Source: a virus. From it: 32,618 bases of DNA. The notes below the pieces were generated by a model. The model saw only the letters and a program-made list of their open reading frames with translations, had not been told where the DNA came from and searched no databases. Location: positions 1 through 32,618 of IMG/VR virus record IMGVR_UViG_3300043602_000155; one strand, given 5' to 3'. Shown here one piece after another: positions 24,522-32,494 of the stretch. Each line of letters opens with the position of its first letter. The first letter of the stretch is position 1. The position numbers were made by a program, and so were the translations under genes.

Positions 24522-25339
24522 GACGGGCGCATGGCGATAGCAACTATACACCGACCAAACAAAGACACCTACAAATGATTTGCGATGGCTGCACAAATGG
24601 ATGGCGAAGCCTCTGCACGCTTAAGCCCGATTCGCTCCTTGTCGTGATCGATAGTACAGCGGGATCAGGACACAGCAAGGAAGGGGCAGCGGGTTCGCCG
24701 CTTATCCTCAACCGTCATTTTGCCAAACATTTTCACGACAATTTCCGTCAGCTTTGTTGTGAAAAAGATAAGCCGAATTTTGAGAACTTATCAAAAGAAT
24801 CTCTTGTTAACTGCGATATTATTCACGGTGAGTATCAACAAGTGATCCTGCCGTGGCTGTGTAATCTCAGATGGTCGGGCCGCTTTCATGGTTTGATCTA
24901 TTGCGATCCCAATGGCATCGTTGACGCGCTCGCGGGTGTTGACCTTTTTAAACAACTGCAATCTGACTATCGGTTTGACCGCATCGACCTACTTTTTAAT
25001 ATTTCGCTCAATGCCTATAAACGTCATAAGTCACCAGGTGTCATCAAGAAAACGTACCATGATGATCCCCCTGAGTGGCTCACCGTTCCCCTTATCGAGC
25101 ATCTCGATAATCTTGCCGCACTAAAGAAGGCGACCTATATTCGCAGTGAAGAAGGCCGCTTACTGGAGTTTATTATGTTATATGGCATGAACACGGCTAA
25201 AGTCAGTCTCAAGCGCAGTACTGAGAACATAGTTCACTATGAGGAATGGCGCAAGAACGCCGAGAAGTATTTAAACGGGGGCATCAAAGTGTCTCCTTTT
25301 CAGAAGGGGCTATTTGATGAATCACCAAATGGGCTTTGA
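24518..25339 (+). CDS. tcmP: TcmP-like protein (three-Cys-motif partner)
   Basis: The 273-residue product begins in an ATGA overlap. Family features: YTPTKQRHLQMICDGCTNG, then the core LLVVIDSTAGSGHSKEGAAG-SPLI, which matches the Y-x-D-x-F-A-G-x-G...GSP glycine-rich core of TcmP, and LIYCDPNGI (a D-P-N-G element), then IDLLFNISLNAYKR. TcmP is named for neighbouring the three-Cys-motif protein Gp37/Gp68, and here such a gene follows and overlaps by 23 bases. The gene is clearly richer in A+T than its neighbours, pointing to recent acquisition. Its reaction is unknown; the D-P-N-G and glycine-rich loop recall a methyltransferase fold. Confidence 0.78.
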   Translation: MRRAHGDSNYTPTKQRHLQMICDGCTNGWRSLCTLKPDSLLVVIDSTAGSGHSKEGAAGSPLILNRHFAKHFHDNFRQLCCEKDKPNFENLSKESLVNCDIIHGEYQQVILPWLCNLRWSGRFHGLIYCDPNGIVDALAGVDLFKQLQSDYRFDRIDLLFNISLNAYKRHKSPGVIKKTYHDDPPEWLTVPLIEHLDNLAALKKATYIRSEEGRLLEFIMLYGMNTAKVSLKRSTENIVHYEEWRKNAEKYLNGGIKVSPFQKGLFDESPNGL

Positions 25340-26639
25340 ACTGGCCGTCAGCAATGGCGAGATGACCGAGGGAGAAGCGCGTCTTTATCTCAAGCATATC
25401 AACGATTCCAGCAAGGCATTGATGTTGCAGTTCGCTACCTTCAAGCGCCGGCGCGGCTTTGCCGTCTTGGGCTATAACAACCTGCCGGATTGCATCCGCG
25501 AAGAATGCCCTGTCTTTGCGGAGTATACAGGGGCAAGAATTTACCAACTGGCCGATGCGGGAGAGGTTTTAGCGAATATCAGCGAGAGTCAACAAATTGT
25601 TGAAAATGCAATTTCGGAGAGCCAACTTCGTCCGATAGCGCAAGCTAAATTGCGGCCGCAGGAGCAGCGAGAAGTCTGGGGGCGAGTGGTCGAGAGTGCG
25701 CCGGAAGGCAAAGTGACGGCGGCTCATGTAACGAGTACGGTCGCAGCCTATCGGCAAGAGAATCACGCAAGCGTGCAGCCCTTGACTATCCGCAAGCCAT
25801 CCGGCATCAAAGCCTATCTGGTCGATGAGTGGGAGCGCCTAAGCTACGATGAGCGCACCTATCTGCTGGAGATGAGCGGGACTGGCCAGTTCAACGCCAC
25901 CAACGATAATGTAGAGTGGGCGCGCTGGACATGGAACCCGATCACCGGATGCCTTCACAATTGCGCGTACTGCTATGCCAGGGACATCGCCAACCATATC
26001 TATAAGCATCTGCCCGATGGCGAACGTTTCTCGCCCGCCTTCTATCCCGAACGCCTCGCCTTTCCTGAGAACACAAAAGCGCCGGACGTATCTCGAATCG
26101 ATGATCCAGTTACGGCGATGGGCCTTCGCAATGTCTTTACCTGCTCAATGGCCGATCTCTTTGGCAAGTGGGTTCCGACCGAATGGATTGAAGCGGTTCT
26201 CGCCCAGATTGCGGCCAATCCGCAGTGGACTTTCCTCCTGCTTACCAAGTTCCCGATCCGCATGGCCGAGTTCCGCTTTCCGCCGAACACCTGGATCGGG
26301 ACAACGGTTGACTACCAGTACGCGGTGGATCGGGCCGAAAAAGCCTTCCGCAAGATTCGGGCATCGGGCTATGAGGGCGTGGCCTGGTTGTCATGTGAGC
26401 CGATGATGGAGCGCCTCACATTCTCAAGCCTTGATATGTTTGATTGGCTGGTGATGGGTGGCGCAAGCCAGTCCAGCCAAACGCCCGCATTTGCGCCGCC
26501 GCTTGAATGGTGGATGAGTCTTTGGCAGCAAGCACAAGCGATCCACCTGCCCGTCTATATGAAAACGAACCTCATTCAGCAGGACGGCAGACCGATTGCC
26601 TTTGATGGGCGCATCCGTGAATACCCACACCTCGCATAA
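25317..26639 (+). CDS. Gp37/Gp68 (DUF5131) radical-SAM-like protein with extra N-terminal domain
   Basis: From ATG 25317 (AAGGGG upstream; a TTG at 25314 is also possible) the product is 440 residues. Residues about 205-440 are the phage Gp37/Gp68 family: WNPITGCLHNCAYCYARDIA carries Cys212, Cys216 and Cys219 in CX3CX2C spacing as in radical SAM enzymes, then FTCSMADLFGKWVP, WTFLLLTKFP, NTWIGTTVDYQ, WLSCEPMMERL and WLVMGGASQSS. Residues 1-200 are unusual: QLRPIAQAKLRPQEQREVWG with GKVTAAHVTSTVA resembles the linker/HTH part of ParB-like proteins. No substrate is known for the family. It overlaps the TcmP-like gene. Confidence 0.85.
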   Translation: MNHQMGFELAVSNGEMTEGEARLYLKHINDSSKALMLQFATFKRRRGFAVLGYNNLPDCIREECPVFAEYTGARIYQLADAGEVLANISESQQIVENAISESQLRPIAQAKLRPQEQREVWGRVVESAPEGKVTAAHVTSTVAAYRQENHASVQPLTIRKPSGIKAYLVDEWERLSYDERTYLLEMSGTGQFNATNDNVEWARWTWNPITGCLHNCAYCYARDIANHIYKHLPDGERFSPAFYPERLAFPENTKAPDVSRIDDPVTAMGLRNVFTCSMADLFGKWVPTEWIEAVLAQIAANPQWTFLLLTKFPIRMAEFRFPPNTWIGTTVDYQYAVDRAEKAFRKIRASGYEGVAWLSCEPMMERLTFSSLDMFDWLVMGGASQSSQTPAFAPPLEWWMSLWQQAQAIHLPVYMKTNLIQQDGRPIAFDGRIREYPHLA

Positions 26640-27515: not shown

Positions 27516-28304
27516 ATGGCGTACCAATTGATACAGGGCGATTGCCTCGACATCTTGCCGACGCTTGAGGCGGGAAGCGTGGACGCGGTGATTACTGACT
27601 TGCCCTATGGCAACGGTCAAACGGCGTGTAAGTGGGACAGTATAATTCCGCTTGATGAGATGTGGGAGCAGGTGAAACGCCTACTCAAGCCAAGAGGCGC
27701 ATTTGTCACGACGGCAAGTCAACCGTTTGCGAGTCGCTTGATTATGAGCAACGTTGAGCAATTTCGGCATGAATGGGTGTGGGACAAGCAGAGCGCGTCA
27801 AGCCCTTTGCATTCCCGAATTGCGCCAAAGCGAAGTCACGAAAGCATATTGGTTTTTGGGCAAACAGGCCATAAATACAACCCTGTTATGTGGGACAAAG
27901 GCAAGCCAAACGGCAATCGAGGAACCGCTCCGCGTGAGTTTGCTATAGGTTGTCGGCAAGATTACGCCAAGGAATTTTCGCACAAAGCCGATGGCAATTC
28001 CCGCTATCCACTGAGTGTAATTCGATTGCCGTTTCAGGTTGGCGAATGCAATAACACTTTGCGCGTTCACCCAACCCAAAAGCCTGTCGCCCTTTACGAG
28101 TACCTCATCCGCACCTACACCAACGCGGGCGATACGGTACTAGATTTCACGATGGGCAGCGGCACAACGGGAGTTGCAGCCATCAAAGAGGGACGGCGGT
28201 TTATCGGCGTGGAACTTGACCCAACCTATTTCGCCATCGCCCAGAAGCGCATTGACGAGGCCGCTATGCAATTGCCCTTGTTTGAGATGGAAGGGGCGGC
28301 CTAA
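27516..28304 (+). CDS. DNA adenine-type methyltransferase, beta order
   Basis: The 262-residue product opens YQLIQGDCLDILPTL, then VDAVITDLPYGNGQTACKWD: motif IV is DLPY (Asp28-Tyr31) in place of DPPY. LLKPRGAFVTTAS follows, and HPTQKPVALYEYLIRTYTNA precedes motif I DFTMGSGTTGVAA (Asp210) and GRRFIGVELD. Order IV-then-I marks the beta class, and D-x-P-Y favours N6-adenine methylation. The recognition region is about residues 85-170. No restriction enzyme gene is near, so it is an orphan that could protect phage DNA. The gene is somewhat less GC-rich than its neighbours. Its TAA overlaps the lysin ATG. Confidence 0.9.
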   Translation: MAYQLIQGDCLDILPTLEAGSVDAVITDLPYGNGQTACKWDSIIPLDEMWEQVKRLLKPRGAFVTTASQPFASRLIMSNVEQFRHEWVWDKQSASSPLHSRIAPKRSHESILVFGQTGHKYNPVMWDKGKPNGNRGTAPREFAIGCRQDYAKEFSHKADGNSRYPLSVIRLPFQVGECNNTLRVHPTQKPVALYEYLIRTYTNAGDTVLDFTMGSGTTGVAAIKEGRRFIGVELDPTYFAIAQKRIDEAAMQLPLFEMEGAA

Positions 28305-30154
28305 TGGCGCTGCTCTACTCCGTCCACGACCGTGACGGCCACGCCATCGTTCCCGCCGGCGGCTATTGCGTCGATGCCGTATTGGTCACGGACGAACCGC
28401 CCAACTATGGCGCCATACGCTCGGACATCAACTGGATTGTGCGGCTCAATCACGGCTGGTATCCCAACGGCACCATCCCACTGCGCCCCGACTATCCGGC
28501 CTTTGCCAAACGCTGCGCCGCCTTCGCCGCCCGCTGTCCAGCGGTCAACGTCTTTATCGTCGCCAACGAGCCGAACCATCGCCAGGAATGGCCTGGTGGC
28601 GACACGATTGAGCCGGAAGATTACGCCGACTGCTTCAACCTGTGCTACCAGGCGATCACCTACGAACGGCCCGATGCCGAGGTGCTGACCGCCGCTGTGG
28701 CGCCGTGGGACAATACCAGCGGCATCGACTGGCTGAGCTATTACAAGCAGATGCTGGCCGCCATCGTCGATTGTGACGGCCTGGCGGTACACGGATACAC
28801 GCACGGCGCCGACCCCAATCTGATTTGGTCGATGGAGAAGCAGCACGGCTGGTACTGGCACTTCCCGGTTATCTACCAGACGATTCAGGCGATCCCGCCC
28901 AAGTTTGCCACGCGGCCGGTGCATGTGACCGAAACCGACCAGGGCGACGACGCCTGGCTCGATGGCAATACGGGTTGGGTGCAAAACGCCTATCAGTCGG
29001 TCAACGAACACAACATGACGCCCGGCACGCAGAAGGTGTGCAGCCTGGCGCTCTACCGCTGGCGCGGCGATAAGTACGAGCTGCACAACAAAGACGGCGT
29101 GCAGGACGATTTTAGCGACGCTGTACGCCACGGCTACATCTCGCCGCTACCGGAGTTGCCGGAGCCGCCACGCCCGACGCCACCCAACCCACAACCTGAG
29201 CCGCCACGGCCAACACCGCCACCGCCTGAGCCAACGCGGGACATCGACCCGCGCCTGATCGCCCGCGGCGTGCATTTCGACTTTGCCAAGCCGCCGGAAG
29301 GCGTAGGCTACTGGCGCATCACCTCGGCGACCTGGCTCGACGAGGCTGAGGCCGATGCCGTCGGGCCGGATCACCACATTTTAGGGACAATCAAGCGCGC
29401 CCAGCAGGAAGTGGCCGGCGTGCTGATGCTCGTCAGTTGGCCCAGCGGCAGCGGCCGCGTCATCAGCAAGGCCGACCAGGCGTATGCGACCTATAATTGG
29501 GACTTCCCGATGTCGGCCTCGCTCAACGAGTTCTCAATCAAGGTCGATGACGGCGCGCCCAGCGACGCCGCCCACGGCATCGGCATGGGCAAGGGCGGCA
29601 ATCCGGGCATCCACACATCCACCTGGATTGAGTACGAATGGACAATATCCGAGGGCATTACAGTGCCCGTACCACCCTTTCCTCCACGACCGGAGCCGGC
29701 AGGGGATTTGACCCATCCCCTGCCAGGCTCGGTCATCACGCAGCACTGGGGCGAGAACGCCGCCAACTATGCCCGCTTTGGCATCTGGGGCCATAACGGA
29801 ACCGACCTCGGCGGCAGACCCTCACGGACGCCGGTACGCTGCCTCGCCGCCGGCATCGTGGCGTACTCCGATTTTGACGCGGCGTATGGTCACTACGTGC
29901 GCGTCGACCACCCTCAGCTTGGCTGCTATTCGATGTATTGCCACCTCGACGAGCCGGGCGCGCTCGAAGGCATACGGCTAGAGGCGGGCGCAACGGTCGG
30001 GCTGCTCGGTACAAGCGGCAACAGCAGCGGCGTGCATCTGCACCTGGAGATTCGCCTGCACAACGCCGACGGCACGTACCGCGAGGACTGCCCGATGCCG
30101 AAGGGCCGCGTTGACCCGCAGACGTGGGCAATTCTTCTCGGGCTGAAGCTATGA
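28304..30154 (+). CDS. modular lysin: GH-A-like glycosidase, beta domain, M23 peptidase
   Basis: The 616-residue product has three parts. Residues 1-280 look like a TIM-barrel glycosidase: VNVFIVANEPNH (Glu89, clan GH-A acid/base type) and VHVTETDQG (Glu210, nucleophile candidate), with DGLAVHGYTHG between them. A proline-rich linker runs about 280-310. Residues 312-450 form a beta-rich module starting GVHFDFAKPPEGVGYW. After a second proline linker, residues about 471-616 are M23/LytM: GHNGTDLGG (His497, Asp501) and VHLHLEI (His578, His580), and a repeated G-x-x-V/L strand pattern. No signal peptide. It should cut both glycan and peptide bonds of the wall. The glycosidase target is not known. 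Confidence 0.83.
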   Translation: MALLYSVHDRDGHAIVPAGGYCVDAVLVTDEPPNYGAIRSDINWIVRLNHGWYPNGTIPLRPDYPAFAKRCAAFAARCPAVNVFIVANEPNHRQEWPGGDTIEPEDYADCFNLCYQAITYERPDAEVLTAAVAPWDNTSGIDWLSYYKQMLAAIVDCDGLAVHGYTHGADPNLIWSMEKQHGWYWHFPVIYQTIQAIPPKFATRPVHVTETDQGDDAWLDGNTGWVQNAYQSVNEHNMTPGTQKVCSLALYRWRGDKYELHNKDGVQDDFSDAVRHGYISPLPELPEPPRPTPPNPQPEPPRPTPPPPEPTRDIDPRLIARGVHFDFAKPPEGVGYWRITSATWLDEAEADAVGPDHHILGTIKRAQQEVAGVLMLVSWPSGSGRVISKADQAYATYNWDFPMSASLNEFSIKVDDGAPSDAAHGIGMGKGGNPGIHTSTWIEYEWTISEGITVPVPPFPPRPEPAGDLTHPLPGSVITQHWGENAANYARFGIWGHNGTDLGGRPSRTPVRCLAAGIVAYSDFDAAYGHYVRVDHPQLGCYSMYCHLDEPGALEGIRLEAGATVGLLGTSGNSSGVHLHLEIRLHNADGTYREDCPMPKGRVDPQTWAILLGLKL

Positions 30155-31128
30155 ATTACCAACTCCTACAAGGCGACTGCATCGAAGTGATGCGAACGCT
30201 TCCCGCCGGCAGCGTGCAATGTTGCGTGACGAGTCCGCCGTATTTCGGCTTGAGGGCGTACTTGGACAATGCCGACCCTAATAAGCCGCTTGAGGTTGGC
30301 ACGGAGGAAACGCCCGACGCCTACGTCGCCAAATTGGTTGACGTGTTTAGAGAAGTGCGGCGGCTGCTGCGGGATGATGGCGTTCTGTGGCTGAATTTGG
30401 GCGACAGTTACGCCAACACGGGAAATCCGGGGCAAGACTTTAGCGCGTCTACGGTTGGCTATGGCGGCAAGGGGCGCGGGCATTTGGGCGGACAACCAAA
30501 GAAGATTATTCCCACTGGTATTAAACAAAAGGATTTATTTGGCATCCCCTGGCTCGTCGCCTTTGCCCTACGCGCGGATGGCTGGTGGCTACGCAGCGAG
30601 GTGATATGGGCAAAGAAAGCACCGATGCCGGAAAGCGTCACCGACAGGCCGACCAAGGCGCATGAGCAAGTGTTTTTGCTGACCAAGAGCGCGAATTATT
30701 TCTACGATGCGGATGCCATCGCTGAACCGGCGCAAGTATGGACAGGACAAGCCGCCACCTTTGCCCGTAGCGGGCCTGTCTCGGATCACATCCTACCTGG
30801 CCAAAGCGCGGCGCAACATCGTTCTGACAGGACGGATAGCGTTACGGCAAGCACACGAAATCGCAGGTCAGTTTGGTCATTGGGGCCGGAAAGTTATCAG
30901 GGCGCCCACTTCGCCACGATGCCGACCAAGCTAGTTGAGCCTTGCATCCTGGCCGGTAGCAGGGTGGGCGATACGGTACTTGACCCGTTCGCCGGCAGCG
31001 GCACAACCGTCGCCGTTGCGCTCAAGCATGGGCGGCGCGGCCTGGGCATCGACCTCAACCCTGCCTATATCGAACTGGCGCATGAGCGTATTCGCCGCAC
31101 GCAGCCAATGTTGCTGGCGGCAGATTAA
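30151..31128 (+). CDS. DNA methyltransferase, N4-cytosine type
   Basis: Starting at ATG 30151 in an ATGA overlap, the product is 325 residues. Motif IV is TSPPYFGLRAY (Ser28-Tyr31), the S-P-P-Y form typical of N4-cytosine enzymes, although some adenine enzymes share it. It continues with LLRDDGVLWLNLGDSYANTG, ALRADGWWLRSEVIWAKK and HEQVFLLTKSANYFYDADAI, and motif I DPFAGSGTTVAVAL (Asp278) with GRRGLGIDLNPAYIELA near the end. This is the beta class again. The recognition region probably lies at residues about 185-255. No cognate nuclease is seen. It opens with YQLLQGDCIEVMRTL, very like the other methyltransferase (YQLIQGDCLDILPTL). Confidence 0.9.
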   Translation: MNYQLLQGDCIEVMRTLPAGSVQCCVTSPPYFGLRAYLDNADPNKPLEVGTEETPDAYVAKLVDVFREVRRLLRDDGVLWLNLGDSYANTGNPGQDFSASTVGYGGKGRGHLGGQPKKIIPTGIKQKDLFGIPWLVAFALRADGWWLRSEVIWAKKAPMPESVTDRPTKAHEQVFLLTKSANYFYDADAIAEPAQVWTGQAATFARSGPVSDHILPGQSAAQHRSDRTDSVTASTRNRRSVWSLGPESYQGAHFATMPTKLVEPCILAGSRVGDTVLDPFAGSGTTVAVALKHGRRGLGIDLNPAYIELAHERIRRTQPMLLAAD

Positions 31129-31451: not shown

Positions 31452-32051
31452 ATGAGATTCCTGGTATCAGTTGGCGGCATCAGTGAGGGCGTCTATGGCA
31501 TCCTGGGCAGCTACAAACACAAAGGCGTACCAAGCGGCATCGCCGGCGGGCTGCCGTGGGCGGGCGACAATTGCGCCTTTACCGGCTTTGACGGCGCACG
31601 CTTTAGCGCATGGCTGGACGGCATGACCGCCTATTGCCCAACCTGTCTATTCGTGGCGGTGCCGGATGTGGTCGGCGATGCCGTCGCTACGTTGGCCCGT
31701 TATGCTGAATGGGCGCCGCAAATGAATGGCTGGCCGCTGGCCTACGTGGCGCAGGATGGCAGCGAGGCGCATAATATACCGTCCAGCGCGGCGGCGCTCT
31801 TCATTGGTGGCACAACGGCATGGAAGGAAAGCGTCGCCGCCACCCTGATGATCCAGCGTGGGCAAGAGATGGGGCTACATATCCACATTGGACGCGTCAA
31901 CTGGCGCCGGCGCTATCAGATGTTTAGACTTTTACCCGGCAGCGAACGCTTTACCTGTGATGGCACTCGCCAACGTTTTGAGGGCATTGAAAAGACATTA
32001 GCGGCATGGAAGCAGTACGAGAACCAAGAGCCACTACTAAAGTTAGGTTGA
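31452..32051 (+). CDS. DpdA/TGT-like phage protein (7-deazaguanine inserting candidate)
   Basis: The 199-residue product matches a phage family related to tRNA-guanine transglycosylase and DpdA. Elements in order: FLVSVGG, DNCAFTGFDGARFSAWLDG, VAVPDVVGDAVATL (71-76), LAYVAQDG (101-103), LFIGGTTAWK (117-124), HIHIGRVNWRRR (145-154) and CDGT (169-172). In the family the aspartates of PDVVGD and the H-x-G-R-V-N segment lie in the active site. It is much shorter than cellular TGT and lacks its zinc site, typical of phage forms. The overlapping next gene is a QueT-like transporter, which supports a 7-deazaguanine role. Base insertion into DNA is inferred, not shown. Confidence 0.8.
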   Translation: MRFLVSVGGISEGVYGILGSYKHKGVPSGIAGGLPWAGDNCAFTGFDGARFSAWLDGMTAYCPTCLFVAVPDVVGDAVATLARYAEWAPQMNGWPLAYVAQDGSEAHNIPSSAAALFIGGTTAWKESVAATLMIQRGQEMGLHIHIGRVNWRRRYQMFRLLPGSERFTCDGTRQRFEGIEKTLAAWKQYENQEPLLKLG

Positions 32052-32494
32052 TTGTGTATGCGGGGCTGGTGGCTGCCGCCTATGCGGTGATCACGATTGC
32101 GCTGGCGCCGATCAGCTTTGGCCCGCTACAACTGCGCCTCGCCGGGCTGCTCAAGCCATTGGCGTTGGTCTCGCCGGTCATCGGCTTAGGGCTGGCGGTC
32201 GGCGTGGCACTTGCCAATATCACGTCGCCTTTCGGCCCGTGGGATTTTGTCGCCATGCCGATTGTGAGCTACGGCGCCGCCCTGATTGCGTACCGGTTGC
32301 GGCGCCGTCCCTGGCTGGCTATGGTCGTGCAGGCGGCGCTTGTGGCGGTCGGCGTGGCGCTCTTTCCGCTGTACTTGGGCGGCGGCATTCCGATGTGGCC
32401 TACGGTGGCGCTGGTCTTTGCCAGCGAGGCGACACTCTATCTGATAGGTTATGCCGTGCTACGCAAGACGCCCTTACTGGAGATTGAGCCATGA
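32006..32494 (+). CDS. QueT-like queuosine-precursor transporter
   Basis: The 162-residue product is an integral membrane protein with about five hydrophobic helices: VYAGLVAAAYAVITIALAPI, PLALVSPVIGLGLAVGVALA, FVAMPIVSYGAALIAYRL, MVVQAALVAVGVALFPLYL and VALVFASEATLYLIGYAVL. The start SFGPLQLRLAGLLKPLALV and the ANITSPFGPWDFV segment match QueT, substrate-specific subunits of ECF-type uptake of queuosine precursors. ATG 32006 overlaps the DpdA-like gene by 46 bases; TTG 32048 or GTG 32054 would give less overlap. It could raise the cell's supply of preQ0/preQ1 for the neighbouring enzyme. Substrate is inferred from family and context. Confidence 0.75.
   Translation: MEAVREPRATTKVRLIVYAGLVAAAYAVITIALAPISFGPLQLRLAGLLKPLALVSPVIGLGLAVGVALANITSPFGPWDFVAMPIVSYGAALIAYRLRRRPWLAMVVQAALVAVGVALFPLYLGGGIPMWPTVALVFASEATLYLIGYAVLRKTPLLEIEP

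Follow-up and report, generated by a model that had tools for sequence, protein, structure and literature searches.

A short DpdA-type gene overlapped by a QueT transporter gene in a viral genome fragment suggests import and DNA insertion of a 7-deazaguanine

Close to the right end of a 32.6 kb viral fragment encoding capsid, tail and lysis proteins (IMG/VR record IMGVR_UViG_3300043602_000155, positions 1 to 32,618; hereafter the window), two genes on the + strand overlap by 46 nt. The first encodes a short, 199-aa DpdA-type base-exchange enzyme of the TGT superfamily (31452–32051), the second a 162-aa QueT-family Q-precursor transporter, predicted to be the S component of an ECF transporter (32006–32494). 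Upstream of this cassette lie genes for two N6/N4 DNA methyltransferases assigned by Pfam, one at 27516–28304 and one at 30124–31128 (+ strand; N6_N4_Mtase, 155 bits), the latter taken as context outside the claimed pathway. Between them, shortly before the cassette, a 616-aa M23-peptidase protein is encoded (28304–30154), while the ORF at 25314–26639 specifies a DUF5131 (phage Gp37/Gp68-type) protein whose domain spans residues 199–417, preceded by ~200 residues with no Pfam match.

A sister contig that is 99.95% identical to the window over 11 kb extends ~6.9 kb beyond the right end, until it reaches sequence 85–94% like the window's left end. Sister contigs continue from the right end into terminase and portal genes and then into sequence resembling the left end (1–1058). 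As the continuation runs into left-end-like sequence, window and continuation together amount to nearly a whole genome, which, judged from this sequence layout, is probably circularly permuted and ~39–40 kb in size. Profile searches of the two combined found no QueC, QueD, QueE, FolE, long DpdA or Vut_1, an absence whose genome-wide reading is limited by the sister contig being a close relative of the window and a different molecule; the first-pass annotation of this DNA had reported the lack of preQ0 genes for the window, and it thus extends to the continuation. Just past the right end, the sister contig encodes a TET-associated glycosyltransferase (TAGT; L006:9590–10438, 124 bits), whose gene is preceded by one for a weakly ParB-like protein (L006:8944–9600). 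TAGT relatives are also present in two other loci carrying short DpdA (L047, L036).

The 199-aa enzyme matches phrog_15826 (6.8e-31), a large viral family labelled ‘unknown function’; in actinophages, its members carry a DpdA-like annotation. Tblastn aligned it at 33–42% identity (E down to 2e-17) with proteins of Arthrobacter and Mycobacterium phages annotated as ‘DpdA-like tRNA-guanine transglycosylase’. No Pfam family was matched, TGT (PF01702) included; this silence is no argument against a DpdA identity, as the long DpdA of the phage 9g/CAjan type likewise lacks a Pfam match. All four motifs from which membership of the phage TGT/DpdA-related family had initially been read are in place, namely PDVVGD (residues 71–76), QDG (101–103), FIGGT (117–121) and HIGRVN (145–150), and the assignment is further borne out by the phrog and tblastn matches, by motif conservation and by a TIM-barrel model.

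Key residues of the enzyme are D39, D72, Q101, G119–G120, H145/G147/R148/N150 and D170. In an alignment of 60 relatives, D72, Q101, G119, G120 and D170 occur in all 60 and D39 in 59, with D102–G103, H145, G147–R148, N150 and G171 kept as well. We matched the motifs to D102, D156, Q203, G230 and D280 of the Zymomonas TGT, which we take to be its base-binding and covalent-intermediate residues, the equivalence resting on motif order rather than on structural superposition. The predicted roles are those of nucleophile for D170 and acid/base for D39, while D72, Q101 and G119–G120 would hold the base. A reading in which the window enzyme lacks its nucleophile, with ‘FTCDGT’ missing the first D of ‘CDSVDGT’, was rejected, as the alignment shows the second D to be invariant.

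AlphaFold modelled the enzyme as a TIM barrel (pLDDT 92) from an alignment free of rows from annotated phage records; a model from the single sequence was unusable (pLDDT 29). The best named viral structural match was the long DpdA of Arthrobacter phage Sonali (E 6.6e-5), and further named viral matches were phage proteins annotated as queuine tRNA-ribosyltransferases. Among solved structures, TGT scored Z 13.4 over 188–190 residues, tied with pyruvate kinases and other barrels. Foldseek searches of the PDB returned generic TIM barrels only (E > 0.001), so that the fold by itself names no function, and sequence-profile searches of the PDB with the enzyme had no TGT among their matches. In direct profile comparison by hhalign, long DpdA was matched tentatively, at E 3.4e-4 with a probability of 38%, its profile comprising four sequences only, whereas E. 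coli and Chloroflexota tRNA TGTs gave no match (E 0.7). Motif pairs of short and long DpdA followed the same order in this alignment (DNxAF/DSGAF, PDVVGD/LDGIGD, IGGT/IGGM, HIGRV/HAFGI and CDGT/CDSS).

Neither Pfam nor profile comparison nor a zinc motif identifies the enzyme as a tRNA TGT. It has 199 aa as opposed to ~375 (~370) aa in tRNA TGT, and its only cysteines (C41, C62, C65 and C169) form no CxCxxC...H motif. These properties bear on the possibility that an imported Q precursor is put in place of a tRNA guanine by the small TGT-like enzyme, at the wobble position or elsewhere, in support of late translation. Such a tRNA target would agree with the fold shared with tRNA TGTs and with the usual service of QueT in tRNA queuosine salvage (PMC11130926); yet size, missing zinc motif, the hhalign preference for long DpdA and the absence of tRNA genes from the window all speak against it, and we consider it unlikely.

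Several phages combine long and short DpdA (Sonali, R29Z, phiG7 and L017), and because some phages carry the short form beside the long one, it may have a different job. It could act on the nucleotide pool, remove bases or be a non-catalytic partner of long DpdA instead of exchanging DNA bases; TIM barrels are multifunctional, and pyruvate kinases share the top solved-structure score with TGT. However, the complete TGT-type catalytic set is essentially invariant and the short enzyme often, as in the window, has no long DpdA within reach, which makes such a role highly improbable. Retention of short DpdA despite a full or nearly full preQ0 pathway plus long DpdA was observed in L008, L012, L015 and L017.

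By sequence, the overlapping ORF (32006–32494) encodes a true QueT beyond doubt. It matches Pfam QueT (PF06177; cut-off 33.7 bits) with a score of 87.5 bits (E 1.3e-24) over positions 1–137 of the 141 in the model, confirming the QueT-like membrane protein that the first-pass annotation had proposed for a gene overlapping that of the enzyme. Its N-terminus, starting at ATG 32006, aligns with relatives, and hydropathy indicates ~5–6 hydrophobic segments compared to about six helices in an S component. As QueT provides the S component alone, the cassette would depend on the host for the ECF module. BLAST found no phage relatives of the window QueT and only weak pieces when started from the QueT of another viral locus (L007), a viral scan with the QueT of Streptococcus phage Dp-1 as query gave no matches, and no close QueT was found on plasmids.

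Relatives of short DpdA occur in at least 545 stretches of viral contigs. To describe their neighbourhoods, the best 80 of these stretches were taken, and in a set dereplicated to 61 loci Pfam was run on the 102 ORFs immediately next to short DpdA and on 102 distant ones. Adjacent ORFs comprised 14 Vut_1, six QueC, four PTPS/QueD and three QueT; among distant ones a single QueC was found and none of the other three families. Q-precursor transporters or preQ0 enzymes of these four families thus made up 27/102 adjacent vs. 1/102 distant ORFs (Fisher p=1.7e-8), and the two transporters alone (Vut_1 plus QueT) were likewise enriched next to short DpdA (Fisher p 3.7e-6). Scans of individual loci add further, weaker PTPS-like neighbours, and in roughly half of the sampled loci no neighbouring Q gene was recognisable.

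Searches with QueT alignments uncovered seven distinct IMG/VR loci, in six of which QueT adjoins a DpdA gene: directly a short one in the window group, L007, L096 and L132, and a longer one in L134 and L135. The exception, L133, is a 100 kb contig on which QueT has no DpdA but type III CRISPR-like (RAMP) genes around it; although classed as viral, this contig probably derives from a chromosome. Gene order in L007, L096 and L132 is reversed relative to the window, so that inheritance as a single block does not by itself explain the pair. Supported branches of the short-DpdA tree require QueT to have been paired with the enzyme on at least two separate occasions. The window protein clusters in this tree with those of L017 and L019 (SH-aLRT 96), its nearest relatives, where the position of QueT is occupied by Vut_1/YhhQ. 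Both transporters are reported to take up Q precursors, despite belonging to unrelated families (PMC11130926). Nothing points more strongly to precursor import as the job of this neighbour than the filling of one slot by two unrelated uptake families, and adjacency in six of seven loci combined with the swap in close relatives argues for selection on the pairing.

The same observations count against a scenario in which preQ0 or preQ1 made by the host is used and QueT is a mere booster, or a host-acquired gene dispensable for modification. Compatible with host supply are the many short-DpdA loci devoid of a transporter and the presence of QueC in many genomes of Chloroflexota, a plausible host phylum, although this count includes weak PP-loop matches. 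Given how regularly QueT stands beside DpdA in viruses and its replacement by Vut_1 in close relatives, we regard host supply with a dispensable QueT as quite unlikely.

The host itself may be a Chloroflexota bacterium, a weak suggestion drawn from sequence matches within the only phylum searched (49% for the window QueT and 42–44% for the terminase). QueT is rare in Chloroflexota, being present in 5/201 genomes. The genome with the closest QueT possesses TGT and gave no match for QueC, as expected for a precursor salvager.

Phage-encoded transporters accompanying DpdA are already known in kind from Dp-1, Pantoea phage Vid5 and the survey of Hutinet et al. (2019). In Dp-1, as in the window, the QueT gene (gp06, 131.7 bits) overlaps that of DpdA (gp07). 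The two QueT proteins are 29% identical, but the Dp-1 DpdA is of the long type (311 aa vs. 199 aa in the window), and its pair follows a full preQ0 operon, the phage also encoding FolE, QueC, QueD, QueE and a QueF-like enzyme. Dp-1 DNA carries dPreQ1 at ~1.7% of guanines (PMC6884629); there, the QueT–DpdA pair accompanies modified DNA, a further point against tRNA as the target in the window. For Vid5, which has a preQ0/preQ1 transporter together with tgt/dpdA, transport-based salvage was hypothesised in 2018 (PMC6266253); unlike in the window, this transporter is a Vut_1 and resides within a longer 7-deazaguanine synthesis cluster. In the actinophages ReqiPine5 (gp04–gp03), StevieRay (53–54) and Aoka (38–40), as in the window, a member of the short DpdA family adjoins a Q-precursor transporter, which is Vut_1/YhhQ where the window has QueT.

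Like the window, the group 3 phages of Hutinet et al. (2019) have DpdA in the absence of preQ0 synthesis genes, with uptake of exogenous precursor as one option; YhhQ was noted in some phages and did not correlate with phage group (PMC6884629). That survey searched for YhhQ only, whereas here transporter and short DpdA are repeatedly adjacent and QueT emerges as a second, unrelated transporter. The presence of DpdA alone does not imply modified DNA: mycobacteriophage Orion encodes DpdA and no synthesis genes, and its DNA showed no 7-deazaguanine (PMC6884629); its enzyme is not necessarily of the short-DpdA family. Within the open-licence literature, both a QueT plus short-DpdA cassette lacking synthesis genes and the transporter swap appear to be new.

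Taken together, the pair quite probably serves to import a 7-deazaguanine and place it in phage DNA, a minimal two-gene arrangement that had been suggested at the outset and has since gained from recurrent QueT–DpdA adjacency, the Vut_1 swap and the Dp-1 precedent. QueT would dock on the energising ECF module of the host and supply the infected cell with preQ1 or preQ0; there, short DpdA would swap selected guanines of phage DNA for the imported base in a TGT-type base-exchange reaction; DNA modified in this way would probably be shielded from restriction. DNA rather than tRNA is the favoured target, as the surroundings of the cassette are rich in DNA-modification genes (two methyltransferases, the ParB-like protein and TAGT). 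An extension of this proposal, in which inserted preQ1, a primary amine, is decorated further in DNA and yields a new hypermodified 7-deazaguanine from scavenged precursor, strikes us as very unlikely; here the TAGT of the sister contig, encoded two to three genes downstream, would for example glycosylate the inserted base.

If the import-and-insert reading is true, modification of phage DNA depends on environmental nutrients and on a host ECF transporter. Hutinet et al. (2019) did not settle where DpdA-only phages obtain the base, and the pairing suggests that it is purchased from outside, an answer based on one short DpdA family recurrently paired with two unrelated Q-precursor transporters. 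The same reading would assign a function to a viral family that is widespread (the at least 545 stretches above) and currently listed as unknown.

Other arrangements were noted around short DpdA. In ten loci (L026, L041, L045, L050, L076, L078, L087, L089, L091 and L094), it directly adjoins one or two preQ0 genes (QueC, QueE or QueD/PTPS) and not a transporter; these are partial pathways, which may supplement synthesis by the host. Three ORFs adjoining short DpdA matched Pfam QueF (best 4.4e-6), an enzyme that could reduce preQ0. Finally, in Escherichia phage phiG7 (L015:7660–8306), the homologue of short DpdA is divided between two overlapping ORFs, with a long DpdA and a full preQ0 pathway next to it.
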